Origin: Siphonodentalium dalli
Taxonomy: Eukaryota > Mollusca > Scaphopoda > Gadilida > Siphonodentaliidae
Reading direction: 5' to 3'
DNA length: 64,000 nt
Assembly (NCBI GenBank): GCA_032622095.1
Contig: CP136064.1
Coordinates: 275,365,614 to 275,429,613, forward strand
Shown here: positions 6,301 to 60,400 of the stretch, one piece after another
Numbering within the stretch: position 1 is the first letter of the stretch
Layout: each line of letters begins with the position of its first letter
Made by a program: the position numbers and the translations under genes
The notes under the pieces: model-generated
Told to the model about the DNA's origin: nothing
Database searches by the model: none
Seen by the model: the letters and a program-made list of their open reading frames with translations, nothing else

Positions 6301-6562
6301 GGAGATATCCCCGTACGTTGGGACATGACTCCCCTTTTAGGGACTGATATTTCTCTGCACGTTCTAATCGCCGTGTTCGGCTCTATTTACCTCCCCATGA
6401 TCGGGACTACTTATCGCATTGAATGTAATCCCTTCGCGTTCTAATATATATTTATATGCTGTGTTCTGAACTACTTACCATATCTCTGCTGTGATATAGC
6501 CCTGTGCGTTCTACTGCGACATTGCTCTGGGGCCAATCCACTGACGGAAGCACGCCTCACTG
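6301..6562 (-). repeat. Degenerate units plus a partial copy of MHC exon 37
   Basis: About three decayed 65-bp-type units (6301-6478) abut a partial copy of exon 37 (6479-6562). Read on the minus strand it gives RRASVSGLAPEQCRSRTHRA, then ISQQRYG|GTAAGTAG, against [20 protein letters not shown] in the functional exon. The 5' half and acceptor are missing, so it looks like a duplicated, non-functional exon end from which the big array grew. Confidence 0.75.
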
Positions 6563-8394: not shown

Positions 8395-8708
8395 TGTTGT
8401 GATATATATTTGCCTTCCCATGTTCGGGACTAGCCACCGTCTTTCTCCTGAGATATATCCCTGCGCGTTCTGATCCACATTCCCAAATGTTTGGGACTAC
8501 TTACCGTATCTCTGATGGGATATATCCCTGCGCGCTCGGATATGAGTCACATTTTTGTGACTAATATTTGGATGTGCGTTATTATCTGTATTCGCTTCCC
8601 GTGTTGGCTCTATTAATTCCCCCGTGATCGGGACTACTTACCGTATCGATGGGATATATCCATACGCGTTCTAATATATTTCTACATCCCGTGTTCGGAA
8701 CTACTTAC
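8395..8708. repeat. Degenerate exon-37-boundary repeats next to the real exon
   Basis: Four to five decayed units carry the CCCATGTT(C/T)GGGACTA..TACCGT core and ATATATCCCTGCGCG. They lie between exon 37 and the unique part of the flank. At least three retain a minus-strand GGTAAGTAGT donor-like core. They are older copies of the same unit as in 1-6300. Confidence 0.7.
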
Positions 8709-8853
8709 CAGATCTCTGCTGGGAGATATCGCTGCGCGTTCTACTGCGACAGTTCTCTAGAGCCATTTCACTGACGGAAGCACGCTCTACTGCGTCGTCC
8801 AATTCTTGTTGAAGAGTGCGGCATTTTGATTGGTTGCTGTTTGCTAGGGATTC
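8701..8853 (-). CDS. MHC exon 37: C-terminal rod and tailpiece, residues 1877-1926
   Basis: The acceptor TTTTAACAG precedes 8853. It encodes [20 protein letters not shown], then [20 protein letters not shown] and SDISQQRS. It aligns gaplessly with the region usually reading EEIAA.NLAKYRKAQ.ELEEAEERAD. Two endings are possible. A consensus donor TCTG|GTAAGT sits at 8703-8708, and a short last exon would then lie beyond the window or be unrecognised. Alternatively, direct read-through gives G-K and the stop TAG at 8701-8703. Key conserved residues of the usual assembly-competence region are changed. Missed by simple ORF calling because of its length. Confidence 0.88.
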   Translation of the reverse strand, partial: ESLANSNQSKCRTLQQELDDAVERASVSEMALENCRSRTRSDISQQRSGK

Positions 8854-11800
8854 CTGTTAAAATTGAGTGACACATTATCAAGACATATCAATGAGAAAAA
8901 ATTGGTTTATTTCTTAGACCTTATAACTTCTAATTTCAGCCTTTTTGGCCACCTACTATATCAGCGGTATTAGTATCTATTAGCTTAATCATGTTGTTTA
9001 TCCATTCCTATACTAAATACTCATTGACGAGTAGTTTCCTTAGGAAATGTTTAGATAACATGAATAATTATGTTCTTTTATTATTTGTTTTTCGTCTGCA
9101 TTTATTACATGAACACCCCCTCTAAATTATTATTAAACCTTTCCATTGTATACATGTATAACTGAACGGGATATTTCATGTATTGCACGGGTTAAAATAA
9201 ATGAGCTTAATGCAAGAAGCCGCAAAGTAATTAGGAACATGAACGATAACATATATATACTATGTACATTGGAATGACTAAATATAATATGTTCATCAGA
9301 ATGTTCATGTTCATACAAAATAGCATTTATGTAGCACTCATATAAATATATAAATATTAATGTGTATAGTCTACATTTACATACACACATGAGTATACAT
9401 ACATATATGTATACATAACAATGTGCATATAAATTAACATGTCTGTCTCTATAGAATAGTATACTATCTTAGTTGTATTCTTTCAAAGCATGTTTAAAGT
9501 CCTATTTTAAAGCCAACGGTCTTCAATGTTGAAACATTGCCAACAGAAAGGGGGCCATGTCATAGCCGCCATCGAATAAATCACACAAATGATGTCTAAA
9601 CAACCACCATATGTCTGTCTGAAGTGTGAGCGATCCGCCATAAAACAAATCGCGATGATGTCTGGATAACCACTATGACTGAATTGTTAGCGAGCCGCCA
9701 CAGACTAAATCGCGATGATGTCTGGATCACCACTCTGACTGAATTGTTAGCGATCCGCCATAAAACAAATCGCGATGATGTCTGAATAACCTCTATGACT
9801 GAATTGTTAGCGATCCGCCGTAAAACAAATCGCGATGATGTCTGGATAACCACTATGACTGAATTGTCAGCGATCCGCCATAAAACAAATCGCGATGATG
9901 TCTGGATAACCACTCTGACTGAATTGTTAGCGATCCGCCATAAAACAAATCGCGATGATGTCTGGATAACCACTATGACTGAATTGTGAGCGATCCGCCA
10001 TATAACAAATCGCGATGATGTCTGGATAACCACTCTGACTGAACTGAAGTGTGAGCGAATATGACTGAATTGTGAGCGCGCCGCCATAAAACAAATCGCG
10101 ATGATGTCTGAATAACCACTTTGACTGGCGAGCGGCCATATAATTAATTGAAAATGATGTCTATATTTGTAACATACCGCCTCCTCGATGTGCTTTCTGT
10201 ACTGTCGGAGCTTGGCCTGTAGATTATCCACGATGTCCTTACTCTTGCTTTGGTTGTTGGTTTCCTCCTCGACCTGGAACTCGAGGTCGCTCACACGTCT
10301 CTCAGCTCTGCGCACGGCCTTCTGGGCATCGCCGAGATATTTCCTCTCGTTATCGAGTTCCATCTCCAAATCTACTATCTGGAACGAGAATGTTAAACAT
10401 GTCTTTACTAAATAGGCATTGGCGGGTAGTTCCCTTAGGAAATATTCAGATAATAAGTTCACAAACTGTCATAGGAAGTGCCTTGAACATATTATCTGAA
10501 CATTTCCCACCAATGAATAGGAAACATTCCATGATTTATTATCTGTTAGTCAGTCTGTGTCTGATTATATATCCTCAGTGACCATCAAGATGAATAATAG
10601 ACCATTGCCATGTGTATTTGTATAACTGATGGGAGAGATTATATATCCTCAGTGACCATCAAGATGAATAATAGACCATTGCCATGTGTATTTGTATAAC
10701 TGATGGGAGAGATTATATATCCTCAGTGACCATCAAGATGAATAATAGACCATTCCAACTTCCCCATGTGTATAATTGACGGAAAAATTCATTTAGTATA
10801 GAAGTTGTTAAATGTGTTACATGGTCATTTAAGATTTGCGTGTTTTGGTTCATGTCTAAGAGTATATATGAAATATTTGGTCCGGCAAATTGTGTTGCTC
10901 AAGTGCGTCAGACAATTTTTATATTTACCCAGCAGTGGTCATGTTATACACGTTTTATCATTTTCAGAGGTACACGTGTTTACGAGAAACACAAAGAAAT
11001 ATACAAACATTAATTAAAGCATGCACATCCTATATCTTCGAATTAGTTTATTTGGCCGTCAAGCGCAAAATAAAAACTTGCGGTGATTTGGTTCATTAAA
11101 CACTAAACAGTTATGCACTGTTAGTTTTTTAAGTTTATTTTTCGTTTTGTGTTGTTTTGTTGTTCATATTAAAAACTCCAGTTATATATACTTGCTTTAT
11201 ACAATGCATATATGAATTGTATATCCAAGAAGACTCTATTTGTATATAAATAATGCCGCCGGGAACATATACCCTCTGTTCGAGTCTGTTAATAATGTAC
11301 CCCGGAAAGTTGGAAACCCTACCTTCTGTTCGACTATGTGAATAGTGTAGCCGGGGACACCTGTATACCCTATGTTGGAGTCTGTATAAATAATGTAGCC
11401 GGGAATACATACCCTCTGTTCGAGTCTGTGAATCAGTGTTTTTCCTCCCTTCATTGAGCTAGCCTCGATTTCGGCCAGTCGTTGCTGCAGCATCTTGACC
11501 TGCGCGTCCAGTTTCTTCCGGAGGTTCTCGACCTGAGCCGAGCGTTCCTGTTCCTGACGGAGTTGCTCCGAGTAACGATTCGAGTCAGCTGTCGCTTTCT
11601 TACCACTCTCCTCTAATTTCCTCATCTCAGTCGCCATCTCCCCCAGATCACTCTATAACGGAAGGCATTCACGTTCTGATTGTGTATGTACAGTACAATA
11701 AAGACGAAACAACTTCATTTCGCTCAACGCGGTGATATGTCCACTTAAAATCGTGGCGAATCGCCGCAAATCGCGCCATCGGATTCCCCGCGATTTTGAG

Positions 11801-14800: not shown

Positions 14801-17536
14801 ATAATATAAAGAAATAATATATCTCGAATGATTAATCATGATCGTATATCATGATAATATAAAGAAATAATATATCTCGAATGATTAATCATCATCGTAT
14901 ATCATGATAATATAAAGAAATAATATATCTCGAATGATTAATCATGATCGTATATCATGATAATATAAAGAAATAATATATCTCGAATGATTAATCATGA
15001 TCGTATATCATCATGTCATAAAGAAATAATATATCTCGAATGATTAATCATGATCGTATATCATCATGACATAAAGAAATAATATATCTCGAATGATTAA
15101 TCATGATCGTATATCATCATGACATAAAGAAATAATATATCTCGAATGATTAATCATGATCGTATATCATCATGACATAAAGAAATAATATATCTCGAAT
15201 GATTAATCATGATCGTATATCATCATGACATAAAGAAATAATATATCTCGAATGATTAATCATGATCGTATATCATCATGACATAAAGAAATAATATATC
15301 TCGAATGATTAATCATGATCGTATATCATCATGACATAAAGAAATAATATATCTCGAATGATTAATCATGATCGTATATCATCATGACATAAAGAAATAA
15401 TATATCTCGAATGATTAATCATGATCGTATTTCATCATGACATAAAGAAATAATATATCTCGAATGATTAATCATGATCGTATATCATCATGACATAAAG
15501 AAATAATATATCTCGAATGATTAATCATGATCGTATATCATCATGACATAAAGAAATAATATATCTCGAATGATTAATCATGATCGTATATCATCATGAC
15601 ATAAAGAAATAATATATCTCGAATGATTAATCATGATCGTATATCATCATGACATAAAGAAATAATATATCTCGAATGATTAATCATGATCGTATATCAT
15701 CATGACATAAAGAAATAATATATCTCGAATGATTAATCATGATCGTATATCATCATGACATAAAGAAATAATATATCTCGAATGATTAATCATGATCGTA
15801 TATCATCATGACATAAAGAAATAATATATCTCGAATGATTAATCATGATCGTATATCATCATGACATAAAGAAATAATATATCTCGAATGATTAATCATG
15901 ATCGTATATCATCATGACATAAAGAAATAATATATCTCGAATGATTAATCATGATCGTATATCATCATGACATAAAGAAATAATATATCTCGAATGATTA
16001 ATCATGATCGTATATCATCATGACATAAAGAAATAATATATCTCGAATGATTAATCATGATCGTATATCATCATGACATAAAGAAATAATATATCTCGAA
16101 TGATTAATCATGATCGTATATCATCATGACATAAAGAAATAATATATCTCGAATGATTAATCATGATCGTATATCATCATGACATAAAGAAATAATATAT
16201 CTCGAATGATTAATCATGATCGTATATCATGCTCATATAAAGAAATAATATATCTCGAATGATTAATCATGATCGTATATCATGCTCATATAAAGAAATA
16301 ATATATCTCGAATGATTAATCATGATCGTATATCATGATAATATAAAGAAATAATATATCTCCAATGATTAATCATGATCGTATATCATGCTGATATAAA
16401 GACAGTCAATTAACATTCAATTTTATTCGCAAACTGATGCAAAACGATTTTCATCTGGAGATTTTTCGTTTGCTGCAATATTGCTAAGAGTGCTATATGG
16501 CTGTGACTGGAATGTGCAACAGCAAAGATTCGACAAAACAGGGAAACCAACTATAATTATTTAAATATAACTTGATAGTGTTCCACTTCCTACTCCATAA
16601 TACTCGTATGTTAAGTTACAGTGTATCCAGTCATATGGTAGAGCGTGGCACACGACAAGAAGGTCCAATGCCAAGACGCCAAGCTCTCAGATGGGCACTA
16701 ATTTTCGATAGGTGATGCTAGTTACATTTACTTTTTGGTATATATTTTCGCGACATTTCCAGCCTGAAGCGACCAAAATATAGGTCCGTTTCAAGATGGT
16801 GGTAACCAACAAGGTATGGGACATATTTGCGGTTTAATGCCATGGTAAATTTGCATATTGTGTGAGTGATTATATTGATTAGCGCATCGAATAAAAGTCA
16901 GAATTTACAAATCGGTCTCATATTCAGAAACATAGTACATGACACGTATTGGCAGTAACTGCTGGCAGAAACTCGGCGTCACAATACACCGTATTCAGAG
17001 TGTGGCTCATCGTCAGGCTGTGGACATGGTGCATTTAGAGTTATCTTACCTGCATCATTAGACAGTCGGTGTCAGACTTCTTCTTGCTCACTGTCAAGCT
17101 ATGGACTTGGGTGGTGTATTCTATTATTCTGCTCTGTGCTTCGACTAAATCGATCTCTGCTGTTTTTCTGGCTCTCTCCGCCTGGAGGAATAAACAATGT
17201 GTCGATTACCACTATATCTTTCTCCGAACCCACTAAATGTATGTTTAACACTGTTTAATGTCCATACTGACAGTATATCCAAGATTATGTTACTGTGGTT
17301 TCATATACCAAGACAGTGATCTCATTGTTAGGTTGACACGAGGAATTTTCAACCCCTGAAGTCAATGACGACTTCATCGGGTTGAAAATTCCTCGTTTCA
17401 ACCTCCACTGAAAATATGCGATAATTATATTGTATTACCTGCTCGAGATTCGATCGTGTTGTCTCTGCTCGCTCGTATAGCGACGTGAAGTTCGATTGTT
17501 GAGCTGGATTTCCGGGTCTCATTGGTAACTACGGCG

Positions 17537-17567
<31 letters not shown>

Positions 17568-20500
17568 TGTATATGTTATATTATGTTGTATATTTACCTG
17601 TTCGAGACTAGCTCTCGTTTTCTCTGACTCGATGGTGAGTATAGAGACGTGACGTTCGATTGTTGAGCTTGATTCTCGGGTCTCGTGGAAGCTGCGACGC
17701 TCCTCAATCATAACTGTCTCCATTTCCTACAAGCAATGTGTTGTTTTTTTGTTAAACCGTATATATATAATATAATTCATCTTAAATTAATCTTAATTCA
17801 TCTATGGACCCCTCCATATCCCACCAACACATTATATTAATGTTGGATACCTAGATTTCTGCTTGGTATTTCTTCGTCTATTTGTTCATGTCTGCCTATT
17901 GCGATTTTTCCCACGGCCATTCAGATACGCACACCACACAAACTCACACCCACCGATACATATGGTAAGGCCTATTAATGCTGGGTACTTTGATTTGAGA
18001 TTGCTTTCTTTTCATGGGTTGTCCATCTCGACCTTCCACACTGTTGCTGGCAGCCATTGATACTCCCCACAACCCCTCACATAGTCACAACCTACCAAAA
18101 ACCCACAAACATGATATTAATGTTGGGTAACTTTATTTGCGCTTTGTATCTCTTCGTGATGTGTCCATCTCTTCTCTCGTTCTGCTGCTGGCATCCAACG
18201 ATCTCCCCCATACTGTTCACATACACCGCACCCACCCCACATATCATATTAATATTGTGTATGCTTGGTATCTCTTTACTAATTTGTCCAGCTCTATTCG
18301 TGCCCTGTTGTTGGCATCCATGGATCTCCCGCATACACACACCACCCCACCCACCCCATATATCATATTAATGGTATGTACCTTGATTTGCACTTGGTAT
18401 CTCTTTACTGATTTGTCCATCTCTTCTCGCGACCTGTTGCTTGTATCCAGCGATATCTCGAGTGACATAATATCACTCTCCAGCTTCTTTCTGATGCGTT
18501 GGGCTTCCCCTCGCTGTTTAATCTCCAACTCCAGAGTCTGGTTCAATGACTCAATGGATCGCTGATGGTTTCGCCTGGTGAGATAAACTAGTTTTAGAAT
18601 GACATAGGGATGACTGGCACGACCAGCACAGTGGTATCCTATCAACAACATGATCGGTCTGAAACTTGGCCGAATAAATATTCAGAAGCTGGACATTGAA
18701 CTAACACCGTATTGTCATGTATTCCCATTGGGTCACTCTATTTTATGTGCAGGTTAAATGTTAAACGTTCGAGATGAAGCTTACATGTTCAGATGGTGTC
18801 GAACCACCGAGGCAGCATTGATAAGTAAGTTTTAACATGGACAAAATTACAAAATTTTAAACACTAAAAATTTAAGCCAATTTCCGCAGAAGGAAATAAA
18901 TAGTTCAACTTCTATCACGATAATTTCGATAAATCTGATTTCGTGATAAACATATGAATTAGAAGTGAAGAACAATAATACGAAGTGTTATACAGATACG
19001 TAGATAGGTATATATTTTATATATGTTAGAATTAACTCAATATTTTTCTCTACTACCCGGAACTATTGTAATGGATATGATATCATTTGAAATGCAAATG
19101 TATGCAGGGCTCCGTGGTATTTTTTTATAGAACATATTGTTACTTCTGAGTCAGATCCCAATGCATAACATAACTTGTTTGAAATGACAAGTACCACGTG
19201 ATAAACAACATCTTCTTTGGCATTGAATTGTGTATCCATATATATCATATACATGTAGTATCGATTATTTTACAGGGACACACAATTTAGTTTGTTAATT
19301 TTTCACTAACAGAATTGCATTGTTTGGAATAATCAGGTCTAGACCGTGCCATTATGGCACATTTGGTTTTCAATATTGTTTTATCCAAACGAAGTTAAAC
19401 CCGTGTTAATTAGATTTTAATACAGTAATTACACCATTATAATACAGTAATTACACCATTATAGTACAGTAATTACACCATTATAATACAGTAATTACAC
19501 CATTATAGTACAGTAATTACACCATTATAGTACAGTGATTTTGAACGTTGTTGTTGTTGTTGTTGTTGTTGTTGTAGCTATGGCTGGAACCCTGAATAAA
19601 TCGTTAATTTAGTTATGTTCAATGTGTACCTTGTATTATCTAACTCCTCTTCTTTCTCCACCATCCTCTGTTCGACCTCTGACCTCATCTCCGTTTTATC
19701 TTTGATAGCTCTGACGAGTTTGTTCTCCATCTGACTGATGTTAACGTTAGCCTCCTCCAGTGACGACAGTAGCTCGCGTTTCTCCTCCTCCACCCTCCTT
19801 ACTGTTATATCGATGCCGCGGGTGTCGCGCCCTCCGTCCTTAAGATGGTAGTTCAGCTCGTGCATTTCATCTGTGAAGTAAACGGTATTATAACACCATA
19901 CGAAAACCACAGCCCACCGTTCAGATTCTGATCATGTTCGTGTAGCAGTTGTCCCGGTGGCTCAATCTGCAAGGTGTAATGAGCTTTATGCCGTCGTAAA
20001 CCGTCCAGTGACCACCCTCGTTCAATTGCCCACAAAGACACACGATTCATCTATTACGAAAAAGGTGGGTCACGTGCGATGTCAGCGATCAGTGGTTTCT
20101 CCGTGCGGCTGTGTGATTTCACAGTGAACATGACCATCTATGTGGGCAGTCCTTTACAAATAGAACTGACAAAAGCATGCTATCGCACAGCAATTACCAC
20201 CAAAATAAACACAAAATCAAAACAAAAATGTACGTTATTCGAATAATGTGCGATTTAACTTTTAGTGCATGCGACGAGTGCTGATAAATATGATTGATCA
20301 ACTTACAATTTGTTTTATCATAGATAATTGAATATGCTGTTCCTCTTCCCATAAAGTTGTATGTAGATTCCGGGGTATAAAGTAATATATATGAATCGAG
20401 GACACCTGTCCGAAAAAGTTTCTAACAAGTAATATAAATTTTATTTAGAATTTCTCATCACATCTCACTCAGATTTATTCACTCATGTGGTCAAAGTATG

Positions 20501-23500
20501 ACATTAGAGCATTGACATATTTGTTTACAAATAGTAATACATAAATTGTACGCATGCGTTGTAAGTAACAATACCCAATAGTGTTGGGGTTGGGTGTCTT
20601 TTCGTTATTACTAAGTACATTTTTTTTTCTTCGTGGTCGATGCCAGGTATTATACATGGGGGGGGGGGGGGGGGGGGGGGGTCTTCATTACAGTATAGTT
20701 GTGGTGGTGGTGGTGGTGGTGGTGTGAATAAGGGGTATATATATATAGTGTCAATCATGAGCCTCAGGGTGTTCCTTGTCTGAGAAGGGCACATTTTATG
20801 AAGGCAGCTAGGTTTATCAAGATCTTGTTACCGTGAGTTGAAAAGAGCATTTAATGTGAGAGCATTCGGTCTTTTGTAGTAGAATTGTTTGATGTATTTC
20901 TTTCGGAGATCGTCAAGATTCGTACATTCAAGAATGAGGTGGTATTCATCACCCAGTTTCTCGTTACATAGATTGCATTTCCGTTCCTCATATGAGGTGC
21001 ATATCCATGATCCAGTTTCCACGGGCAGTCTATGGTTGAGTGTACGGAATTTCATCAGGCATGCCACTGTTTTCTGATTTTCAAGTGATATATAATATTC
21101 TTTGCCGAATTTGGCTTGGTAATGCGGTAGAATGGGCACTTACTGGATGCGTCAATATAACCTCGCCATTTCTGCATGTATTGGTCCATTGAACGGGTCT
21201 TGATCAACTTATTAAAGTGTTTCGTTTCCGGTACCCATTGTTTCAACCAAAAAGAGGAAAATCCCAATTCTTCAAGATTTTTTCTGGTATAATCGAGCCA
21301 AATATTTCTAATGTTTTTTTCCTCGCATGTAGTTATCATAAAATAGTACAGTTTCAAAGGCAATCTTTCACAATTCATGTTCATGATTCTTCCCCAGTAT
21401 GAGAGTTGTCTGATTTTAAATTTAGTCTCTATTGGGTATATACCAGTTTCACCATATACAAGTGGTGTCATGGTGGAAGATTTTAACCAAAGTGCGAATT
21501 TAAGAGTTCCAATTTTTCAAATGATCCCGTATTTTCAAAACACCATACCTCTGACCCGTAAGTCATTGTTGGAACTATTGTCTTTTCATAAATGTCCAGA
21601 ATGGTATCAATAGTCAGCTTATGTTTTCTGGCCTTACTCAACAAGGTGTACATAGCCTTTTTTGCGTCTTTGCATCGCATGTTGCGCTCTCTTGTGAATT
21701 TACCTGACTTGCTGAACCAAGTTCCAAGATATTTGAAATGGTCGACTATTTCTAATTATATAGAATTTATGTGAAAGCATGGGGGTAGTTTCTTTTTGCT
21801 TCGTCCTCCGAAAATCATTACTTTCGTCTTCGAGAAGTTAACGTTGAGCTTCCACATATTGCAGTAAGCTACAAAATTATCTAGTGAGTATTGCAATCCT
21901 CTCTCAGAATTAGATAGAATCACGGTGTCATCGGCATAAATGAGGAGAAACAATTTCATGTATATTTCGGGGGTTGACTCACCGAATACAAAACAGAACA
22001 GCATCGACGCGATTCAAGAAATTCCTCCAAGTCATTTAGGTATATTGCAAAAAGAATCGGTGAGAGTCCGTCACCTTGTTTTAAGCCAATAATACTATCG
22101 AAACTATCAGAGAGGCTACTGTTGGCCGAAACAATCATTTTCATGTCTAAATACATACTCTTAATAACATTTAAAATGTTTCCGGTGATATTATAGTGCT
22201 TTAGTTTGGTTCATAGACCATCTCGCCAAACAGAGTCAAAAGCCTTTGTGAAATCTATAAATGCACAGTGTAGTTTCTTTTTTTCCAATTTTGACCAGTT
22301 GTATAAGTGCGTACATGGAGAATATGTGGTCTATGGTTCCATAACCCTTTCGGAAACCAGCTTGTGCTTCTGTTTGGATACTATTAGCCGAGAGGAACTC
22401 ATTAATCAGCGTGCATAAAATTTCAGTGAATAATTTATAAATTACACAAAGGAGTGTTATTCTTCTGTAATTATCTGGATTTAACGGGTCGTTCTTATTT
22501 TAAAAAATCGGTTTGATAACGCCCAGCGACCAGTTGTGCGGTACACAACCTGTAGATACAATCAGATTAAAAAGATTAACATAAAATTATGTGCCGATAT
22601 AATCGAAACTGTATTTGATCATTTCATTTTCGATATTGGCTGCGGACACACGTACCACAGTAGCGGTGGCATAGTAGGTGTGACAATTAATTATGGTAGA
22701 GTTTGGTGACAATTGGTCAAAATAATTTATATGCCATAGGGAGTCGTGTCGCGCGCCGCATATTCGCACAGTGAGTCGACTGACCAATTAACCCATTGAG
22801 TTTCACCAAGGTTGATCTCTACTCATTACGTTTAGCCACATTGTATTCTCTACGATACATAAAATTGCACGACCGATCGTCCAGAATTGTCTTGTGTCTT
22901 AGCATTAAAAATATAACATTGCGTGTTGAGTAACGATCGACAGCGACAAGACATTCGGTTTGATAAATCATTGAGATGTCGATCTCGACGCTGATAGAGC
23001 TTGGAAAAGACTCATTGTGTGAATGTGCGGCGGGCGACATGTCGGGTACAGTGTGATCATGCTCTACCCTGGTGTACAAATTTGTTTCGTCGGCCATGAA
23101 TTGATCTCGAAAAGATTCAACTGGGGGCATATTGTTTTCTTTTTTCCTTTTATCCAAGCCAGTTGTATTGGCGACATCCGCACGAAAACGTCCAGAGCAC
23201 ACACAGAAGCGTACCAAGAAGGACAACTCTATCTAACTTGTTATCAGCCTCAACCACGCCACATTTCATTTAAACTATGCAGTTTCCACAACGGTCTTAC
23301 ATATACAATCCAAATAAACCACTTTGTTATGCCTTTATCGACATATAATAGATCCAATCTTGAGTTGCATTATACTTGTATATATATGTTATTAAAACAA
23401 TAGCTATTTGTAGTCTTGAAATCGGATTTATAAAAAATATGTTGTTGTTGTAATTGTGGCTAGGAAGAGACAGACCATCTTTAAATGAACCATGGTTTGT

Positions 23501-26500
23501 CTTATCTATATGACATACACCTTCGGTAAATTAAATTTGTTCAGGTCTAAACATTATGTCATTCCGAATTTAACAATTTCTACAGTTAAACAAACGACCT
23601 AAATATACTACAATAAATAGCACTCATTTTGCACTTTTATTATCTGTCGTCTGCTTATTGTTTCTGAACACCCATCCAGATGAACAATAGACAATTCCAT
23701 TCTATACTTTTACAACTGAGTTGGGGGTTAAACAGGATATCATCAAATTATAATCACCGATGAGCGTCTTGTTTTCTCGTCTGAGCACGGCGATAGTATC
23801 ATGAAGCTCGTCAGCATGTGATCTAGCTCGGAGGAGTTCAGTGGCTGATGCCTTGCTCTCATCCTGAGCATTGATGACGTCAGCGGCTAGTTGCTTGCAT
23901 TTGGTGTCCATATCCTGGACATTTCTGTCATGGTTTCTCTGCTTCCTCTCCGTCGCGGTGATAGTGGACATTGCCTGTTCAAAATAAACATAAATATTAA
24001 AGCTGTTCTGCCAGATTTGACACCATAAAACCATCATAATTAATAGGAGGTTTTTATGTTTTGGCAGCATAGGAAACATTCCGACGATCGCCTCTTATAA
24101 AAGCGGCCATGCTTCTGATACCCCCAAAAAAAGAGCGTTTGAATTACGAGCTTTGTAATCGTATTCGACATATGCTCGTGGATGACTTTTGTGGATTTTC
24201 GCGATGCATGTGTGATACACAGGGTGTTGATTTTTATAATTATTATAATATATAAATAATATGCATGTGTGATACACAGGGTGTTGATTACATTACATAC
24301 TTCACTGTCTTTTGCCTGTAAGCGGAAATGGCTTAAATTAAATTCTGAATTATTTGGCGTCAAATCGGACGGTGGATATTTATTGTTCAAGAACATATGA
24401 CGTCACATATAGTACGGACATCCTTGACGCAAATGATAACAAACTACCATGTCGCCACACTGCCCAAAACATTCTCTGTGAAATGAGGCCTACTTCATTT
24501 TTTCAGGGACCCTGTGTACGTTTTAGAACAGATATTCTCGTCTTCGCAAGTTGCGTTGTTTTCTACATGTAGCCAAAGGCAACAGCATTATATACCTAAG
24601 CATTGGGTCGGCACAATCTTGATACATGAACTGTTTGATTCCTGTTAAAGACAATTAGCGTATCATAAGTATTTCATGGCTATGTTCGATACCATTCTGG
24701 GGTTCTATCAAAGTTACATGGCATTAAATGGGTTCTTAGTTTCTAAAGTTATGTGAGAAAGATTATAATGGAGTTCACACAGCTGATAACACGACGACTC
24801 ACCAGATCAAGCTGGGCCGTGACGTCATCCAGTTCTCCCGCGAGCCTCGACCTCGTTTTCTCTAGTGAGCTGACCTTTGACATCGCAGTCTCGGCATTCT
24901 CCTCGGCCTCCATCAATCGAGATTGAAGTGTGCGTCTGGAAATTCATTAATTCGATAAAATACTCCGAAACACGTTGTTGTGCCACGAGAGTTGACGAGA
25001 ATATATAGATCTCTCACTGGACTCACACATTACTAGCATATTTCCAACATGAACCGCGAAAATCCTAATGGTATATATAGAGAACATTTATATAAAACAA
25101 AATAATGATGTATCAATCAGTATAAAAGTAAGCGAACTCGGTTAAGAACTTGTCGCAGTCCTGGAACTGTAATCCATAATGGCCTATAGAGAACACTTTT
25201 GGTAAATATGTTTCCACTCTTAATTCAATATGAGTGCATTATGTACAGAAAACACGACACGAAGAACCGAGAAAGTATGCTATCCATCTTCCTTCCATTT
25301 TATCTTGAATAATGTATCAGGTTCAATACATTAGATATAGTTGTCGGGAATATGTTATAAGAGAAAGACAATGAAAGATAAACAAAAAATTCAAAGAAAT
25401 TAAACACTTAAAGGTACGGTTGGCCTTGGCGGTGGGTATCCTGTGAAAATATTTCCACCCGTCAAAAACCGCCACAAACAGAAAGAACAACAAAATGTAG
25501 ACAGACTTTGTCCGTATACAAATAAGAAATATCGCATAAACAGTATGTTATTGTCATATATATGACCATTGTTATGTAAACACACGCATAAAAAGTAACT
25601 TTTCTGGTGTTTGTTTATATTATGATGGTAAACATAAAGAGCGTTCTTTGTTGATGAATTCCTGATATGGAACGAATAAAGAGCGTTTGTGCCATTTGTG
25701 TGTGATTAGCCAGCAGCATTGTGCTGTCTTCTGTAACACAATCAGGCTCTTGCTTAGGTAAAATATAGTAAATCTTTATGATAACATGCTGTTTACGCGA
25801 TGGTCATGGTATATATGAACGAAACTGTATGCGTTTTAATGTTTTTATGTTTACGGTGATTGGAACAAATATGAATATTTTCGACAACTAAGGCCTCACG
25901 TGCCTTTAAGTACAAACAAACAAACAAATAATTACGAAGACAAAATAAAATCGGAGACTTTTGTTTCGTTGTTATCAATCACTTACTTTGATTCTTCGAG
26001 TTCCTCAGCTCTGGTGGCGCCCTCTGATTCGTATTTCACGCGCCATTGTTGACTCTCGTTGTTAACTCTCGACAGGGCGCGCTGGAGCTCAGCTTTCGTT
26101 TCGGCCTCGTCATCGATTTGTTCTCGGAGAGCATCGACCTCGACATTCAGATTGCGGATCTCAGTTCTCGCCTTGTGGAAATGCTGCAATATAAACACAG
26201 TACGTTAGATATAGAATATCCATGTCGCGATTATCTCCCATTCCCGATACATCTCTTTCACAAGACGTTTCCAATTTAAATATACGGTTGTCCTTCGCGA
26301 TGGATATTGCTGTTAAAAAGTGACATCCGTTAAAACCGCCATAAACAGAACGAATATTAAAATATAGACATATTTTGTTCTTATACCATCATAAATATCG
26401 CATACATGGCATTTTATTGTCAAGATCGTACGCCTTGTTAGTAAACAAAAGCCATATTATGATAAGTACAGTAAGTATAGAGTGTGTGAATACGCAAAAC

Positions 26501-29500: not shown

Positions 29501-29558
29501 GGAATTATAGTAGCACATACCTTATATGTATTAGTTATCTATTATATATTTTGAAAGA

Positions 29559-29592
<34 letters not shown>

Positions 29593-30428: not shown

Positions 30429-30459
<31 letters not shown>

Positions 30460-39400: not shown

Positions 39401-42400
39401 AGCCTGCATCATCCATTGAAAATAATGTTTAAAACATTCATGGAAAACTCTTTCTTCCCCGATGAATGGAAACGTGCAAACGTTGTTCCAATTTTTAAAA
39501 AAGGAGACCCAACAGACCCAGGAAACTACAGACCCATATCCCTATTAAGTTGTATTGGTAAAGTATACGAGAAATGCATAGCCAAACATCTACTCACATT
39601 TCTTACCAAAAATAGTTTACTGTGCAAACACCAAGCTGGATTCCTCCCCGGGCAGTCAACATCACACCAATTATGCGAAATTTATCACGAAATTAGTAAA
39701 AGTTTGGACGAAGGCCAGGATGTCAGAGTCTTATTCTTCGATATAAGCAAAGCATTCGACAAAGTTTGGCACCGTGGTTTAGTTTATAAATTAAAAAGAA
39801 TGGGTATCACAGGTAATCTTCTCAGATGGATTGAATCATATCTAACAAACCGCGAGCAAAGAGTAGTTTTAGGCTCAGAATCTTCTTCCTGGGGAGGGGT
39901 TAAAGCTGGTATGCCCCAAGGATCCGTCCTTGGGCCGATTTTATTTTTAACCTACATTAACGACATTGTTAAAGGAATTAAAAGTGACATTAGACTATTT
40001 GCTGACGATACGTCCATATTTCTGCCTATTAAAGACCCGATACAAAGTGCCAAAATATTGCAAAAAGACATAAACACACTGGAAGCATGGTCGAAGAGAT
40101 GGCTAGTAAAATTCAATGCCAGTAAATCAGAATCTATGTGCATATCACGTAAACAAAACCCTTTGAATCATCCAAACTTATATATGAACAATGTCCCATT
40201 GAACACAGTATCAAACCACAAACACCTTGGTGTCGTTTTTGAAAACAATTGCTCATGGAAGGCCCATATTGCGTCTATATCTAAACTTGCATGGTATCGA
40301 ATATCTATGTTACAAAAACAAAAATACGTTCTAAATAGAGAAACCCTAGAAAAATGTTATTTCACTCTTGTAAGACCAATCATAGAATACGCAAACGTTA
40401 TCTGGGACAATTGCACAATAGCAGAATCTGACAAGTTGGAAGATATACAACTAGAAGCTGCGCGTATTGTAACAGGATGTACCAGATCCACGAGTAATAA
40501 TAACCTTATAATTGAAGCAGGTTGGGAGACTCTAAAAAAGAGACGTGAAAATTCAAAACTTTATTTATATCACAAAATGATCTATAATTCGGCCCCGGAG
40601 TATCTACAAAACTTAGTGCCCCCACTTGTATCCGAGGTATCGAAAATTAATACCCGTAACTCAAAAAACTTTCGGCTACCCCAATTTAACGCCAATTCAC
40701 ACGACCGGTCATTCATATTAAATACAGCAGCCCTCTGGAATTCACTGCCGATGAGCACACGCGACATAGTGAATTACGACGAATTTAGAACAACAATAAA
40801 CACTAGTCATAAAAAGAAGAATTCACGCTTCAAATATTGTTACACAAGAAAAGCACAAGTAATCCACACACGTCTTAGAAACTATTGTAGTGACCTAAAC
40901 GCGCATAAATACCAAAATTATATCTCTGTCACTGATCGCTGTGTTTGTGGCCAAATAGAAGATAGCTACCACTACATATTCCAATGTCGGCGTTACCGTC
41001 CACATAGGCAAATTCTTCTTGGAAAGATCCCAGACGCAATAGTTCCCTCAGTTTATACTTTCCTCAATGGCGATGATACAATGAGTCTACAAACGAATCT
41101 AACTATTTTTGAAGAATTCCAAAAATTTATTATCCACACACAACGATTTTAGTTGCTTAATTATAAATCGGTCAGCAGCATCTTAAGCATCATACGTAAC
41201 ATGTAATAAAATGAATAATCCGTTCCATTCTACTCCCCTCACCACTCCCCTCCATCTTTGTCTTCTTATCTTAAATTCTCCTCTTATTCTTTATACCCAA
41301 AAATCATAGGACCAATGTAATATCCGAATTATCTATCTACTGTCCGGTCCCGACACTAACGTCAATTTCCATGATGATTTATATAGTATATTATACAGGG
41401 GCCCTAGATGATACATGGGGAGAACGACACCTGAAAAGCCATGTGCTTACTGTCGTTCTCCATTTCTACCAGATATATCACATATTACCATTATACATTA
41501 TATTAATTCCTTGTGTATTCCCTCGTTCAATTTATATTATGTATATTATATATTTGGTGGATAAATAAACTATGCTTAAACCAAAGACTGGTGACAAACA
41601 ACAACCGCCCAATTACTCTACCCTTCGGGATAAAGGCTGTCGCTATTTATTCAACACTTCGTGATAAAGACTGGTGACAAACAACAACCGCCCAATTACT
41701 CTACCCTTCGGGATAAAGGTTGTCGCTATTTATTCAACACTTCGTGATAAAGACTGGTGACAAACAACAACCGCCCAATTACTCTACCCTTCGGGATAAA
41801 GGCTGTCGCTATTTATTCAACACTTCGTGATAAAGACTGGTGACAAACAACAACCGCCCAATTACTCTACCCTTCGGGATAAAGGCTGTCGCTATTTATT
41901 CAACACTTCGTGATAAAGACTGGTGACAAACAACCGCCCAATTACTCTACCATTCGGGATAAAGGCTGTCGCTATGTATTCAACACTTCGTGATAAAGAC
42001 TGGTGACAAACAACAACCGCCCAATTACTCTACCCTTCGGGATAAAGACTGGTGACAAACAACAACCGCCCAATTACTCTACCCTTCGGAATAAAGGCTG
42101 TCGCTATTTATTCAACACTTCGTGATAAAGACTGGTGACAAACAACAACCGCCCAATTACTCTACCATTCGGGATAAAGGCTGTCGCTATTTATTCAACA
42201 CTTCGTGATAAAGACTGGTGACAAACAGCGACCACCCAATTACTCTACCATTCGGGATAAAGGCTGTCGCTATTTATTCAACACTTCGTGATAAAGACTG
42301 GTGACAAACAGCGACCACCCAATTACTCAGCACTTCAGGATAAAGGCTGGCAGCAAACGCCGACCATCCAATTACTCAATCATTCGGAATAAAGGCTGTT

Positions 42401-48400: not shown

Positions 48401-51400
48401 CAGTGGTTTGGTCAGCACTAAAAATTTACGGTTATGATGACCTATTCGTAATTATTATATGTCGCCGTGCATTGAGAGAAAAACACATAGGTGGCTGTGT
48501 GTAGATCAATATTATGAACGTTAAAGGTATCCAATACTACATTCATAGCTCTGTGTAGATCAATATTATGAACAGGTCTGTGACGTTAAAGGTAGCCAAT
48601 ACAACATGCATAGCACTGTGTAGATCAATATTATGAACATGTCTGTAATGTTAAAGGTATCCAATACTACATTCATAGCTCTGTGTAGATCAATATTATG
48701 AACATGTCTGTAACGTAAAAGGTATCCTATACTACAATCATAGATCTGTGTAGATCAATATTATGAACAGGTCTGTAACTTTAAAGGTAGCCAATACAAC
48801 ATGCATAACACTGTGTAGGTCAATATTATGAACATGTATGTATCGTTAAAGGTATCTAATACTACATTCATATCTCTGTCTAGATAAATATCATCAACAG
48901 CGTTTTAAAGATACGGGTGGTCTTCGCGATGGGTATTGATGGTGACAAAAAGATACATCCGTTAATACCGCTATTAAAAGAAAGAAAATTAAAATATAGA
49001 CAGATTTTGTTCTTATACAAATCATAAATATCGCATAAATAGCATGTTATTGTCAAGATCTATGCCTTGTTAGTAAACAAAAGTCATGTTATGATAAAGT
49101 GCAGTGCGTAAAGAGTGTGCGATAGGCAAAAAACACCGGGGAGAACCAACTATGAACTTTGGTTAGAATGGACACCATATTGACAACAGACCGACATAGC
49201 GTTCGCTAATACTGATCCTCGCTACTCAATATTTCGGTGTTGAATGGGTCACCGTGAATCATTCTCCCAAATAAATCGCCACGGTGTTGAATGTTTTGCT
49301 TATCGCACAGTCTGTACGTGCTGTATTTAAATAAACGTTCGATTCACAGAAATCGATTTTGAGAGTATTATCGCGCTCATACTATCACTATATTCTTGTG
49401 TAAATTCATAATTTGGTAACGTTTATTTCTATATTATGACCTACAACCAAGGCCATCCGTGCCTTTAACGTTGACTCACTTCGTACACTTAAGACCCATT
49501 TCTCAGAATGGTTACACATCTAGTATAGTCATCAGTTGGCATTCGTTTATGTATGCAGACACTATGAAAGTCATACCTGGTGGTGCCTGGAAGAGCAGAG
49601 CGACGAGCGGCTCCTTTGATGTTGATAACAGGTTAACGACTGTCTCGTTCAGCGGGTCTTTGTTCTTCTCAATCCAGTTCGCGATGCTGTAGCTCACCTG
49701 AAATATCGATAGAATATCTATATTGATTGAGTGTGAAAACTTTTTTAATATTTAAAAATTCGATGCCTTGTGTCATGAAAACTGGGTATTTCAGAAATAT
49801 ATCGCCTTAAACAATCGAAGCTGGACGTGTCCGAATGGGAAAGTTGCTTAGATACGATAAGTGTAATTTACCAGCCAACCGTAATGTATTTATCGCAGTC
49901 CATGGGTATGATTTTGACAAACATAGTCACATTATTAATTTGTTTTCTGAATGAGTCGGTTGAAAATCGATGACGATTTGAAAATGTTGCTTTTAAGTTA
50001 AATAAGCTGTTATTCCTGTTATGTGTAAATTAATGCGCTCATCTGTGTTATCATGTGATGGTGCTTGATGCTGTGCTGAATATTGACGATGATAGGCTAT
50101 AAGCAGCATGTTATTAGTATTCAAATTTCATTTGGATAGTTCTACTGTTATACGTTGTGACCAGTACGCCCGGCATTTTAATTTATTGTATCAATGTGTT
50201 CTCCACCATGAATAACAGTTATATTGCTGTTTTACTGTGGCTTACCGTGCACTCGCCATTTCTATTTATTGTACCAACGTTTTCTCCACCATGAATAACA
50301 GTTATAGTTATATGTTGATCTGGCTTACCGTGCCGGCGTAATGGTGCAGAGCGAAGTGACTTTCTGGCATTCCAGCTTTTGGTTTTCCTGGTTTGCCAAA
50401 GTTCTTGCATTTCCCCATATGATTGCTGTATAACTTGTCTTTGAACGTCTGATCGCTAGATTTGGGGAACATGCATTCTTCCTCAAGAATGGACAGGATT
50501 CCCAATGGCTGAAATACAAAATAAATTGAATTATATTGGAAAACCAGAAACGTTGCCGGTAGTAAATGAAGACCAATGGCCGAAATATATGGTTAAATGT
50601 TGGTTGGCAAACGTAGCAGAAACATAAACTATATATGAATTGCTTTTTGAACACATACCTTTTCAATCAAGTCGACGCATGCTTGCAGATCCATTCCGAA
50701 ATTTATAAACTCCCATTGGATGCCTTCCTTTGCGTACTGTTCCTGTTCCAGGACAAACATGTGATGGTTAAAGAACTGCTGCAGTCTCTCGTTGGTGTAG
50801 TTGATGCACAGCTGTTCAAAGCTGTTGAACTAGAAATAAGACAAGATATTATATGCTATAATGAGTACAAAGTATTGGACCAATGTTCAGTTATCAGCTC
50901 AATATGGCAGTATATGTGCGAATATGGGAAGTGTTATGGAGAATGGATGTGGAAAACAACGAAAAGTCGTATTCCGTGATAGTAAGACGCGTGTTTGTAG
51001 AGTATTGGTTAATTGAAATTAGCTACAATTATAGAATGGGATCGTATCCCTGAACCAGACAAAAGTAATGTATGATAGCGTGATCCATTGTTTTGTTATA
51101 TATGATATTAGCTATCTTGATATTTGTAATTTCCCCGTAAATGACGATTCAAAACTACCGCGCCGGTTGACTTACGTCGAATATTTCGAAGCCAGCGATA
51201 TCGAGAACGCCAATAAATTGGCTCCTCTTCTGCTTTGTATCCAGGGTTTGGTTGACTCTCTTAACCAGCCAGCTGAATACTCGATCGAAGACACACTTGG
51301 ACATCGCAGAGACGGAGTAGGTGACTTGGTTCACGTTTCTCCCTTGTATGACGTATTCGGTTCCGACCTTGACCTTTGGTTTAGTGAAGGCCTTCAGCAA

Positions 51401-54400: not shown

Positions 54401-57400
54401 AACAAAACGGCCAAAACCGGCCAAATAAAGCTTCAACAGCCTAAAATATCTTCGGTCTGTCTCAAATATAGAACCATACAAATATGGATATCATTGGAAC
54501 CGGCGCCTTGACCACATTGTGATAGTTACAGTTATGCCCTGTGCCAATGCATTCTCTTATATATGCGAGTCGACCATATGTCGCCTCGCATATATAAGAG
54601 AATGCATTGGCCTAAAACAAATCTTTTTTTAACACTTTTTACCATTTTTTCTTATATTCTTTAACAATTTTATAATTTTTAATGTGTTAAGCCAATGCAT
54701 TCTCTTATATATGCGAGGCGACCTATGGTCGACTCGCATAAATAAGAGAATGCATTGGCACAGGGCCCTTCTGTTGGGTAAAGGGTTAAAACAACATACT
54801 CACACAGTTGTTGTTGTAAAATCAAACTATCTTAAATGTTCAGACTATGTTTATCTCTAATTTCTAGCAGACAATATTGACATGTGTGCATGAATGCCTT
54901 TAATTTATCTAGTGTGCGTTAACATGCAACTTATGTGTACGTAATCATTTTATATATTCTTCCTTATGTTATTGTTCTTTTGTATCGTTACTTAAATAAC
55001 TATACTCTAATAGGTATGTTATGAGGATGAAATAAAGGATTGATATAACATTTTAACCTAGGTTATCTATAAGTTCCAACATATACCATGCACGTCACTG
55101 CTAGAGGAGAGTACACATACCTTCTTGTCATCCTTATGATCACCAGAAGAGGCGACCAGAGCAAAGTACATTATCACTTTCTTTGTGTTTTCTGTCTTTC
55201 CGGCACCCGATTCTCCGCTGAAATTGAAGGGAAAGAAGGATAAACAGGCAGGAAACGGCGGGGTCCGAAAATGGTCCCCGTTCCCATGGCAACTAGTCAA
55301 GTCTGACCCTAACATCCCCAATCTCACGTGATATCAATCGGTTTGTGAGCAAATTATAGGATAGGACAATTTATTTCAAACATACATTCATAAAAATTGC
55401 ACATTGCTGTGGTATATTGAGGATTTAGGCAAATTGTTCACAAGATTTCCACGTTCATATGATCCACTGGCATAACATAAGACTCCAAATGCGCCCCACT
55501 TTCCCCAAGTAAAGGCTCCAGGACGCTTTCCCAAAACATATAAACACCTTTAAAAAAATCATTCCCCAACGAGGCGGCAACTTATTCGAGGCGTTTATGT
55601 AGCCCGAACGAAAACCCAACGAAACCTCTGGTCATTGTCATGAAACTTTCTATTTAATTGTTAAGTGTCGCGTTGTTCCTTAATCGAATTAATCTAAAAA
55701 TAACAATATATTTGGATATTTACTCACGTGATCAAACAAGACTGGTTTTCTCGATCTGAAATAAAACATTTAGTTTCAGATGTTAAAACCTGTTTCTCTA
55801 TATATTACTGCACATATACAATCCATTATGCATGTCAGATCCAATAAGCTGTGTATCTCCACTAAACTGTCCTCTGACGCCATTGGCATTGCGCAACATC
55901 AAGATGAATGCAAACCGAACTGTGACGAGTTCTTGTGCATCAGTATGAACAATCCTGCAAATAGTGTGTCTTTAATTATAGAATGAGGTCCCCATGTGGT
56001 GATTTTAGTGACGCTATCCAACACAGCAGGCGAGCATCACCAAATTCACCATCTGATAACCTCATTCTGCTTAGGTCTCATCTGGGAAGTATCTATAGTC
56101 TCCAATTAATATTGATTTAGTAACTTTTTCCCTTCTTGAAGTTTCTATACCCCCCTCCCCCATTTGCAGTAGATAAAATGCATAATCGAGGTGACTTATT
56201 TATGGGTGAATATCACCAACTTCAACTTGGGAACTTCAATCTTACCATAGGTCTCACATAGCATTTGAGGGCTGAGCAGAATGAGTTTCACAGAGGGTGT
56301 ATTTGGTGACGCTAGCCCGCCGGGCTAGCGTCACTAAATTCAGCCTCTGTGGACCTCATTCTGCAAATGGCATACACACTATTTGTAGGCTTGAGTATGA
56401 GCACAGTGATAAGAGACGTGAATGCATAGGAAGGCAACCTAATGGGAGATGAGGTACACTTAAGTGAACATAGCACTTGTCCTCCAATCACAGTTGTATG
56501 TCATATAACTTGTTCATAAAATTAGATAAATAAATATATTTAAAACTAAGACTATCATTCACACAACCATCAAATATATAGTTTACTTTCATCACACACA
56601 CAGCCCACTTTGTCAATATTACCTTGCAACATGAACTGGAAGGCGTTGTCGGCGACGGAGAACAGATGGGGTGGCATCTCTGTCTTTCTCTTTCCTCGGT
56701 ATTTATCGATGATGTTCCCGGTGTAGATAGGGAGCCTCCTGTACGGATTTATGGCGATACAGAACAACCCAGAGTAGGTCTGCAACATAAAATGTATAAT
56801 GTGATGTGTAGATATGGAGTCTTCAGTGCGGATTTATGGCGATACAGAACAACCCAGAGTAGGTCTGCAACATAAAATGTATAATGTGATGTGTAGATAT
56901 GGAGTCTTCAGTACGGATTTATGGCGATACAGAACAACCCAGAGTAGGTCTGCAACATAAAATGTATAATGTGATGTGTAGATGTGGAGTCTTCAGTACG
57001 GATTTATGGCGATACAGAACAACCCAGAGTAGGTCTGCAACATAAAATGTATAATGTAATGTGTAGATATGGAGTCTACAGTACGGATTTATGGCGATAC
57101 AGAACAACCCAGAGTAGGTCTGCAACATAAAATGTATTATGTGATGTGTAGATATGGAGTCTTCAGTACGGATTTATGGCGATACAGAACAACCCAGAGT
57201 AGGTCTGCAACATAAAATGTATAATGTGATGTGTAGATATGGAGTCTTCAGTACGGATTTATGGCGATACAGAACAACCCAGAATAGGTCTGCAACATAA
57301 AATGTATAATGTGATGTGTAGATATGGAGTCTTCAGTGCGGATTTATGGGGATACAGAACAACCCAGAGTAGGTCTGCAACATAAAATGTATAATGTGAT

Positions 57401-60400
57401 GTGTAGATAGGGAGCCTCCGGGATTCAAAGTGATACAGAACAAACCATAGTACGTCTGCAACATAAAATGTAAAATTTGATGTGTAAATAGGACGCCTTC
57501 TGTGTGGATTTTCATACCAGTACCAGGAAGCTACGTCACTAATGTATTATCTAAACCGTCGCATCAGACGTACGGAACTATCTGGAACTCTTGCATTCGA
57601 TGAGCTGGATATGTGTTGCACGAGTTATTGCACTTATACGTGTGAAAGGGATTTTCCATGCACATTTCAGTTATATAATATTACTTATTAAAGTGATGTG
57701 AAATACTCCGTAGTGTGATCAAAAGAAATTGAGTATAATCTTGCTCAAAGTAGTTATTTATTTTTGTACGAATATTGATCAAAATTGACAACACACACCC
57801 CGTCATTCTTATATATTAATTAAATGCAATGACTCTCGATGGCGAATTCACTTGAGTTAGTTTATCGTCAATAGTTGCGTCCCGAATCGAGATGTAAATA
57901 TTTACAGTTGAATGTAGTTCAGACGATGTTTTCTATGGAGTGGTACGGTCGATGTCTATGAAATATTCGGCGATGTTAGTAGAATGCTACATTTCCCATG
58001 TTGGGATAGCGCCTTAGTACTAATTTATCAATTTCACGCACCCGAACAAGCCCATAATATGTCTTTAACAATTACTTATTTCTGAATGTCCATTGTGAAT
58101 GTCCACAGGTCATGTACTAGTTTATGATATCAGACAAACATTTATAACTTTCTATATGATATAAACAAATCAAAACCAATTTGGGTTAGAGACTTGACTG
58201 GTGACGTAGGTTCCTAGCCCTGCGCGTGCAGCGAGTAGCGCTGAAAATATTAAATGGCCGACCAACGAATACGATATTCATCTTGGAGTATACGCGTTGC
58301 TACTATATATGCACTAAGGTATGCCATAACGTTTATATATTGACTGGTGTTGCTGAATTAGCTTCGATATCGGAAGTACTAAGCGATTCTGTGAGGAAAG
58401 GGGTCTGCTCAGTTTCTAAAATAGTCAAGTTTGAAAGGAAACGTCCGGAATTTGGCAGTTACGGGTGTGGACACACTTATACTGCGCCGATAACGGAAGT
58501 CTATACTCAGAAACTCCTAAAACTGGTCCGTCGGTCATGCGAAATATTGTTTCTTGCTCAAATATTTAAACTGTTGTGTGTTGTATCGGCCTCGAGGAGA
58601 GATGTTTCGGGATTCTGTGCTTACATAAATAAGGCGGCTTGTGTGGCGCGTTGTCAGGTTGATGTTCGTACAATGTTGCAATGAAGCTACATGTATATTT
58701 GAAACGGGAGGTAGTTTACCACATGCAGAGTTCTACATTGAACCTCGTTTTCTGACCACCAGATTGAGCTGATGAAATGTTGTACCTCTTGATATACACA
58801 TGTTTGAAAGTGTAGTCACATAAAGCCGCTCGTGTGGCGGCATTAGAGGTTGAGCATTACGCATTCTTCGTTCAGATAACTCACGTCGACGATTAAGGGT
58901 TTTTAGAGTCTTTAGAGTTATTCGATAATTAAAGCCGCTCCCGTACCGGGTCCTGATATTATACAGCACGTATGCTTCGTTCAGATAAGTCATGCCCGCC
59001 ATGTCGGGCAGAGTATTCCTCGGAGGTTTTAGAGTGTATTATACTCACATATATATATATATATACCCGCTCTCGTACGGGCTCTGATGTTATGCAGCAC
59101 GCATGCTTTATTCACATAAGTCATATCCGCCATGTTGGCTGTTTGGATTTAAGGGAGATGATCCGGGACTGTACTCACATAAATAAAGCCACTCTCGTAT
59201 CGGGCTCTACGGGAGATGATCCGGGACCGTACTCACATAAATAAAGCCGCCCTCTTATCGGGATCTAAGGGAGATGATCCGGGACTATACTCGCATAAAT
59301 AAAGCCGCTCTCGTATCGGAATTTAAGGGAGATGATCCGGGACTGTACTCACATAAATAAAGCCGCCCTCATATCGTGATCTAAGGGAGATGATCCGGGA
59401 CTGTACTCACATAAATAAAGCCGCTCTCTTATCGGGCTCTAAGGGAGATGATCCGGGAACGTACTCACATAAATAAAGCCGCCCTCGTAACGTACTCTAT
59501 ATAAGGGAGATGATCCGGGACTGTACTTACATAAATAAAGCCGCTCTCGAATCGGGATCAAAGGGAGATGATCCGGGACTATACTCACATAAATAAAGCC
59601 GCCCTCGTATCGGGATTTAAGGGAGATGATCCGGGACTGTACTCACATAAATAAAGCCGCCCTCGTATCGGGATTTAAGGGAGATGACCCGGGACTGTAC
59701 TCACGTAAATAAAGCCGCTCTCGTATCGGGATCTAAGGGAGATGATCCGGGACTATACTCACATCAATAAAGCCGCTCTCGTATCGGGATCTAAGGGAGA
59801 TGATCCGGGACTGTACTCACATAAATAAAGCCGCTCTCGTATCGGGATTTAAGGGAGATGATCCGGGACTGTACTCACATAAATAAAGCCGCTCTCGTAT
59901 CGGGATTTAAGGGAGATGATCCGGGACTATACTCACATAAGTAAAGCCGCTCTCGTATCGGGATTTAAGGGAGATAATCCGGGACCGTACTCACATAAAT
60001 AAAGTCGCTCTCATAACGTACTCTATATAAGGGAGATGATCCGGGACTGTACTTACATAAATAAAGCCGCTCTCGTACCGGGCTCTGAGGTTGTGCAGCA
60101 CACATGCTTCGTTAAGATATGTCATGTCCGCCATGTCACTGATCTGTTCGTATTTCGGCGGATTCAACTGCTGTATCTCATCCTTCTTAACCGTCTTCGT
60201 CTGAAATACGCGAGAATAATCGAAAAATCCTTTTATGCACACATATCACATATCATATCATATAATATCACATATCACATGTATGGCGTGCATGGGTGAA
60301 TTTTCTCTTTATTTTCAGTGTTATTTGTGTATGTTGTTGCACATTTAAAGACCACCTACTCGATTTGGCATCGAACGTTCATTCCCAATGTCTGAGTTAA

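Follow-up and report, generated by a model that had tools for sequence, protein, structure and literature searches.

How does a single gene come to hold, within its introns, tandem arrays built from its own exon–intron borders, and does this reveal a process aimed at those borders? The question is posed by a muscle myosin heavy chain gene lying in the stretch of 64,000 nucleotides analyzed here (the window). The original prediction held that the ends (or starts) of eight exons, together with their splice sites, had been copied into neighboring minisatellites by independent events, and it attributed this either to a recurrent, boundary-targeted duplication process or to decoy splice sites that are tolerated or selected for splicing control.

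The Host Gene and Its Locus

The gene, hereafter W, occupies the minus strand of the window and runs downward from an ATG at position 61114. Its model, which was built from open frames compared with two paralogues and then submitted to splice-site and frame checks, consists of 36 coding exons (numbers 2–37) that form an open frame of 1,924 amino acids with no stop; this is the portion inside the window, the C-terminal end lying beyond its left edge. All internal borders proved to be AG/GT in these checks, i.e., the introns are of the GT–AG type, and the authentic sites are presumably those used in splicing. The exon numbering of the original prediction fits if the gene begins with an untranslated exon 1; such a 5′ UTR exon is presumed and was not located. 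Among proteins of solved structure, the nearest relatives of the W head are the muscle myosins of scallop, clam, and squid. Two further observations concern the surroundings of the coding exons. Intron 30 (21959–22499, minus strand) seems to hold the remains of a retrotransposon reverse transcriptase in two separate pieces (E-values of 2.4e-5 and 1.7e-4 against RVT_1, both under Pfam's cut-off), and an additional tandem array (TRF periods 244 and 405) lies upstream of the start codon, at 62750–64000.

The genome comprises 2.23 Gb in nine contigs, and myosin loci are given here by their position on contig C4. Eleven sets of muscle myosin head exons are found within 274.2–275.5 Mb of this contig (about 1.3 Mb), and more myosin genes lie near 158, 172, 221–224, 288.9, and 291.7 Mb. 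The muscle myosin heavy chain genes of C4 thus form a large amplification, with molluscan proteins as their solved relatives; a single muscle myosin gene with alternative exons is usual in molluscs.

Tandem Copies of Exon–Intron Borders

When 36 donors and 35 acceptors of W were probed against the neighboring intron, border-spanning copies were found at the donors of exons 3, 14, 27, 32, 33, 35, and 37 and at the acceptor of exon 4, and at none of the other borders. Only border-spanning rows ranking above the trivial 15-base self-overlaps were used. The gapped scores of the eight borders ranged from 17.4 to 60, compared with a maximum of 14.4 in a null of 216 comparisons, in which donor probes were run against other W introns and on which acceptors were judged as well. 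The central claim, that eight exons have had their own border and splice site tandemly copied, is therefore confirmed, as is the predominance of 5′ splice sites (seven of the eight).

The arrays, all on the minus strand, differ widely in size. The largest combines the end of exon 37 (predicted authentic exon, 8709–8853) with its 5′ splice site in a 65-bp unit repeated about 97 times; it occupies positions 1–6310 of the window, outside the range of 8395–60200 to which the original prediction had assigned the repeats, and is preceded by three further copies near 8505, 8438, and 6479. At exon 27, the last 24 nt of the exon and 10 nt of intron form a 34-bp unit present about 30 times (26781–27816). 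The end of exon 3 (predicted authentic exon, 60057–60200) and its 5′ splice site are repeated in a 58-bp × ~16 array at 59145–60090, with copies counted down to 58625. The sole acceptor array joins the end of intron 3 (TTGCAG) to the start of exon 4 (predicted authentic exon, 56623–56779) in an 85-bp unit repeated about nine times (56721–57490).

The remaining four cases are smaller. Exon 14 has an 83-bp × 1.9 duplication (50174–50333) that was expected to hold the exon end; the border is indeed spanned, but only about the last 5 nt of the exon accompany the 5′ splice site. The end of exon 32 (18382) is accompanied by decayed copies of the donor region spaced at about 123–142 bp (17840–18411). 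The end of exon 35 is followed by three donor copies (11245–11434), whose measured spacing of 44–50 bp replaces the unit of 55 bp proposed earlier. Lastly, the exon 33 donor has a single decayed copy 159 nt into intron 33 (17413–17468).

At a cut-off of at least 20 of 32 matches, which means that copies were chosen by their similarity to the border, W contains 154 decoy donors, and GT is present in 151 of them. By exon, the counts are 17 for exon 3 (15 with GT), 1 for exon 14, 29 for exon 27, 3 for exon 32 (2 with GT), 1 for exon 33, 3 for exon 35, and 100 for exon 37, where GT is found in every copy counted. Similarly, AG is present in all eight aligned copies of the exon 4 acceptor array.

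Other W arrays lie close to a donor and do not include the border. Four of them, all on the minus strand, start within about 135 nt after the donor: an 83/49-bp array from about 24 nt after exon 21 (41583–42399), a 57-bp array from about 33 nt after exon 22 (35396–36155), a 22-bp array about 90 nt after exon 31 (19414–19540), and a 60-bp array about 135 nt after exon 36 (9619–10043).

Sharing and Turnover Among Myosin Paralogues

Four paralogues were compared with W: B (275.464–275.520 Mb), C (274.42–274.47 Mb), D (221.5 Mb, 32 introns), and G (158.5 Mb, 13 introns). B matches W at 91–98% identity over the listed long aligned blocks and carries the same arrays with different copy numbers. The exon 27 array, with about 30 copies in W and 17 in B, illustrates this length instability; the array after exon 21 measures ~0.8 kb in W as against ~8.3 kb in B, and the one after exon 36 has 7 copies in W and 45 in B. 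The exon 14 site of B appears to be a single copy, compared with the 83-bp duplication in W.

The exons of C are 92–99% identical to those of W, except for exon 34 (84%). C has the arrays of exons 4, 32, 33, and 37 in common with W, and the exon 33 border, with its single decayed copy in W, is associated in C with tandem arrays of 55–57 bp. C also has its own copy at donor 4 (score 19), whereas border probes against adjacent introns detected no copies at exons 3, 14, 27, and 35. In D, one weak border copy was found, at donor 12 (18.4); a match at donor 17 (15.4, with a null maximum of 13.8) was left uncounted. No border copies were found among the 13 introns of G, and none of the eight border arrays of W was present in D or G where these could be mapped. 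Both genes hold few arrays of any kind (2 and 3, respectively, in TRF), so the duplication rate varies strongly between related myosin genes. In G, exon 18 matches twice (at 24754 and at 25720 of the joined stretch), and the two may be alternative exons.

In a genome search with the exon 27 unit, tandem matches were found in the three genes at 275 Mb and one match each in six genes at 274 Mb, among the matches listed. Arrays homologous to that of exon 3 occur near the genes at 288.9 and 291.7 Mb. A 1.2-kb piece of the former contains 17 copies of the exon 3 end, 11 with GTAATG and 3 with GTAAGT, as well as stretches resembling more of exon 3; the prevalence of GTAATG, unlike in the W array, may be a sign of decoy weakening. 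Judging from these distributions, some arrays are old and shared, and others young. The proposed independence of the arrays accordingly holds by exon, the units being unrelated, but not in the sense that all are recent: more distant paralogues carry exons 3, 4, 32, 33, and 37 with such arrays as well, which accounts for five of the eight.

Two candidate roles or sources could be discarded through these comparisons. Intron positions are identical to those of W for 36 exons in C and for all 33 mappable exons in D, and no new introns have therefore come from the arrays here. An origin of the units from a dispersed element was also rejected: among the matches listed, those of the exon 27, 3, and 37 units (at least 28, at least 30, and at least 30, respectively) were all at or near myosin loci of C4.

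Border Arrays in Unrelated Genes

Four genes unrelated to myosin were also mapped. Three are presumably clathrin heavy chain, a plasma-membrane Ca-ATPase (PMCA-type), and EF2, names that we assigned through matches to human proteins or Pfam hits; the fourth was named collagen from its Gly-X-Y exons. Clathrin heavy chain, of which 22 introns were mapped starting at residue 457, has two border arrays. In one, eight copies of a 39-bp unit include an exon end (..RRQLIDQ) and its donor (23940–24290 of the joined reverse strand, minus); in the other, three copies of a 53–65-bp unit include the acceptor of the exon starting VDKLEQSEH. The length of 39 bp is a multiple of three, and the whole array forms an open, in-frame stretch; use of its later decoys would add 13-residue repeats without a frameshift. 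The PMCA gene, which was mapped in part (11 exons, 10 introns), has a donor array of 2.7 copies of a 58-bp unit, 97% matching, with 31 exon bases and the donor. No border array was found in collagen (9 introns) or EF2 (2 introns). The cases in clathrin and PMCA indicate that the phenomenon is not special to myosin.

Placement of Duplications Relative to Borders

Whether borders are preferred was assessed by counting first copies alone; tests weighted by base pairs were dropped, since array expansion inflates the number of array bases. With arrays collapsed in this way and dispersed repeats masked, 4–6% of intron positions in W and C and 1–4% in five other regions lie in local duplications, so that some border matches are expected. 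For the W donors, the count exceeded this expectation: in a point test, 7/36 donors (threshold 15.5) and 6/36 (threshold 17) were hit vs. 1.5–2.3 expected (P = 0.001–0.028), and 5/36 vs. 1.4–2.2 at threshold 20 (P = 0.015–0.067). Acceptors showed no excess (1/35 vs. 1.5–2.6 expected). The donor enrichment over the intron background is about 2.3–4.5 fold, varying with mask, period limit, and threshold, and W was picked for being striking, which makes its P-values flattering. Without masking, with periods up to 1500 and threshold 17, donor hits came to 6/36 for W (P = 0.024), 2/36 for C (P = 0.63), 1/32 for D (P = 0.31), and 3/33 for B (P = 0.20); rows from B are not independent of W and were excluded from later tests.

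A window test gave the same impression for W. It covered 106 nt around donors in introns of at least 270 nt (shorter introns, 2/36 in W and 2/36 in C, were dropped), with dispersed repeats masked and threshold 17. Donor windows of W were hit in 11/34 cases vs. 28/247 in the intron interior (OR 3.7, P = 0.0025), and acceptor windows in 1/33. The corresponding donor and interior values were 6/34 and 26/218 in C (P = 0.25). In six other regions (D, G, clathrin, PMCA, collagen, and EF2; 88 donors in all), donors were hit in 6/88 vs. 50/799 interior windows (OR 1.10, P = 0.49) and acceptors in 2/88, with the same picture at threshold 15.5 (7/88 vs. 59/796); the point test gave 3/88 donors vs. about 1.5 expected (P = 0.18). 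A donor bias within W is thus supported, but not a general boundary-targeted process, although a twofold bias could have gone undetected in a sample as small as these six regions.

For the four unrelated genes in particular, donors (2/43 vs. 0.6–2.9 expected, P = 0.13–0.78) and acceptors (1/43 vs. 0.7–2.9 expected) are compatible with expectation in the point test. Pooling W with these genes gave 8/79 donors vs. 2.3–3.1 with masking (P = 0.003–0.015), and P = 0.12 without masking at threshold 17. Pooling W with the six regions in the window test gave 17/122 donors vs. 78/1046 (OR 2.0, P = 0.015), a result carried by W. Over these seven regions, with C left out, donor windows also exceeded acceptor windows (17/122 vs. 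3/121, P = 0.0009), again largely because of W, and acceptor windows fell below the interior (P = 0.04). A link between border arrays and high expression is not favored: clathrin and EF2, which are presumed to be well expressed, showed no donor-window excess, EF2 contributing just 2 introns.

Origin and Maintenance of the Arrays

The observations are probably best explained by a duplication-prone genome, in which the border-spanning arrays are the tolerated fraction of intronic duplications, extreme in one gene cluster, and correspond to minisatellites of the "mirage" type. Tandem duplications of roughly 30–160 bp would arise often in introns of this genome, and some would by chance span an exon–intron border. 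As the exon-side copy would still supply the authentic splice site, the mRNA would be unchanged and the array could survive, while the extra copies, now intronic, would expand, contract, and homogenize like any minisatellite. Splicing may ignore the decoys, exon definition choosing the nearest pair, and fewer acceptor arrays may survive if an extra upstream AG is more disruptive or likelier to be used. In favor of this explanation, other arrays of like kind in the same W introns do not touch borders. Against it stand the pooled donor excess and the strong difference in duplication rate that sets the array-poor D and G apart from related genes. Moreover, random placement alone does not predict the W donor enrichment and the four arrays that follow donors; these require either chance, together with the fact that W was chosen as striking, or a bias local to the cluster.

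The latter thought leads to a bias of the duplication process itself, with the first ~100 nt of introns as a preferred birthplace, owing, for instance, to R-loops formed during transcription or to breaks at 5′ splice sites. The donor-window excess in W and the contrast between donors and acceptors both speak for such a bias, as does the share of duplicated first-copy positions in the first 35–100 nt of introns, which is 13–15% in W and 8–12% in C vs. 2–6% further in, and is also high in the unrelated-gene regions P (1.5–17%) and K (11–12%). However, the first-100-nt share is 0–2% in D, in G (where it was computed without repeat masking), and in the unrelated-gene regions H and F, and the six other regions have no donor excess. 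The value for C is not significant, and five of its six hit introns are also hit in W, which points mostly to sharing by descent. In addition, W was selected as striking, and depletion of acceptors by selection would yield the same donor–acceptor contrast. A donor-biased origin is for these reasons unlikely, and it is rather improbable that intron starts in the W lineage form a genuine hot zone in which tandem duplication is linked to transcription or to splicing in the course of it; if they did, a single intron could receive as many as a hundred functional-looking decoy donors, which the spliceosome would have to reject.

The near-complete retention of GT and AG among the copies, and the persistence of arrays in diverged paralogues (exons 4, 32, 33, and 37 in C, exon 3 near 288.9 and 291.7 Mb), might instead suggest that selection maintains the decoys as regulators of splicing or of transcript output in the myosin genes. 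Decoys are mostly intact, but other positions of the W units are as invariant as the splice signals, as homogenization predicts, and the copies were chosen by border similarity; selection for decoys, as envisaged in the original prediction, is therefore not demonstrated. Moreover, the exon 3 copies near 288.9 Mb have largely departed from GTAAGT, half of the border arrays are missing from C and all of them from D and G where mapped, and none of the W units of 34, 58, 65, 83, and 85 bp is a multiple of three, so that decoy use would usually shift the frame. Such selection is very unlikely. An assembly or sequencing artefact is hardly credible: assemblies are known to be error-prone in tandem arrays, and the exact copy numbers are those of the assembly, but array copies diverge from their unit consensus by 2–7% per position on average, the window contains no N, separate paralogues carry these units at different copy numbers, and cases of two to three copies, such as that in PMCA, fit within any read length.

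Relation to Known Systems and Significance

Tandem repeats across exon–intron borders have been described as "mirages" in the amphioxus Adh, globin, troponin C, and PGBD5 genes (PMC3087553, PMC3902484). According to these reports, they concern both kinds of border, include splice signals, and are unstable in length; their authors describe normal splicing and propose intron gain from them (PMC3087553, PMC3902484). The present arrays resemble those of amphioxus (Adh, globin BflGb6/BflGb9, troponin C, PGBD5), as portrayed there, in that units ranging from tens of bp to ~160 bp span 5′ and 3′ borders alike, many copies retain the splice signals, and the number of copies is unstable. Here, the unit spans the border at eight W borders and three in unrelated genes, with donors involved in three genes and acceptors in myosin exon 4 and clathrin. 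They differ in that the encoded myosin is nearest to mollusc muscle myosins, with eight affected borders in one gene and one array of ~100 copies.

Tandem genomic duplication of AGGT-containing exon segments is a proposed route to intron gain, credited to Rogers in PMC3087553 and reviewed in PMC3443670. As outlined in these sources, it shares with the present case the tandem duplication of a segment with splice-site-like sequence; here, however, existing borders were copied into existing introns, with no new position among the paralogues compared. Ordinary intronic minisatellites show the same turnover, homogenized units, and array-specific unit length and sequence, but the unit here includes coding sequence and a splice site. 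No report of border arrays in molluscs was found in a non-exhaustive literature search.

The arrays are thus real and of an already known kind, the mirages, and they are notable for their scale in one gene and their presence in several genes. The recurrence of border arrays and their link to tandem duplication, both part of the original prediction, are supported. Such arrays can mislead gene prediction, and they show that numerous border duplications can occur without giving rise to introns. More generally, they extend a little-known phenomenon from a few amphioxus genes to an apparently mollusc-type genome, in several genes at once, and offer natural test cases for exon definition, in which presumably just one of many successive, nearly identical 5′ splice sites is right.
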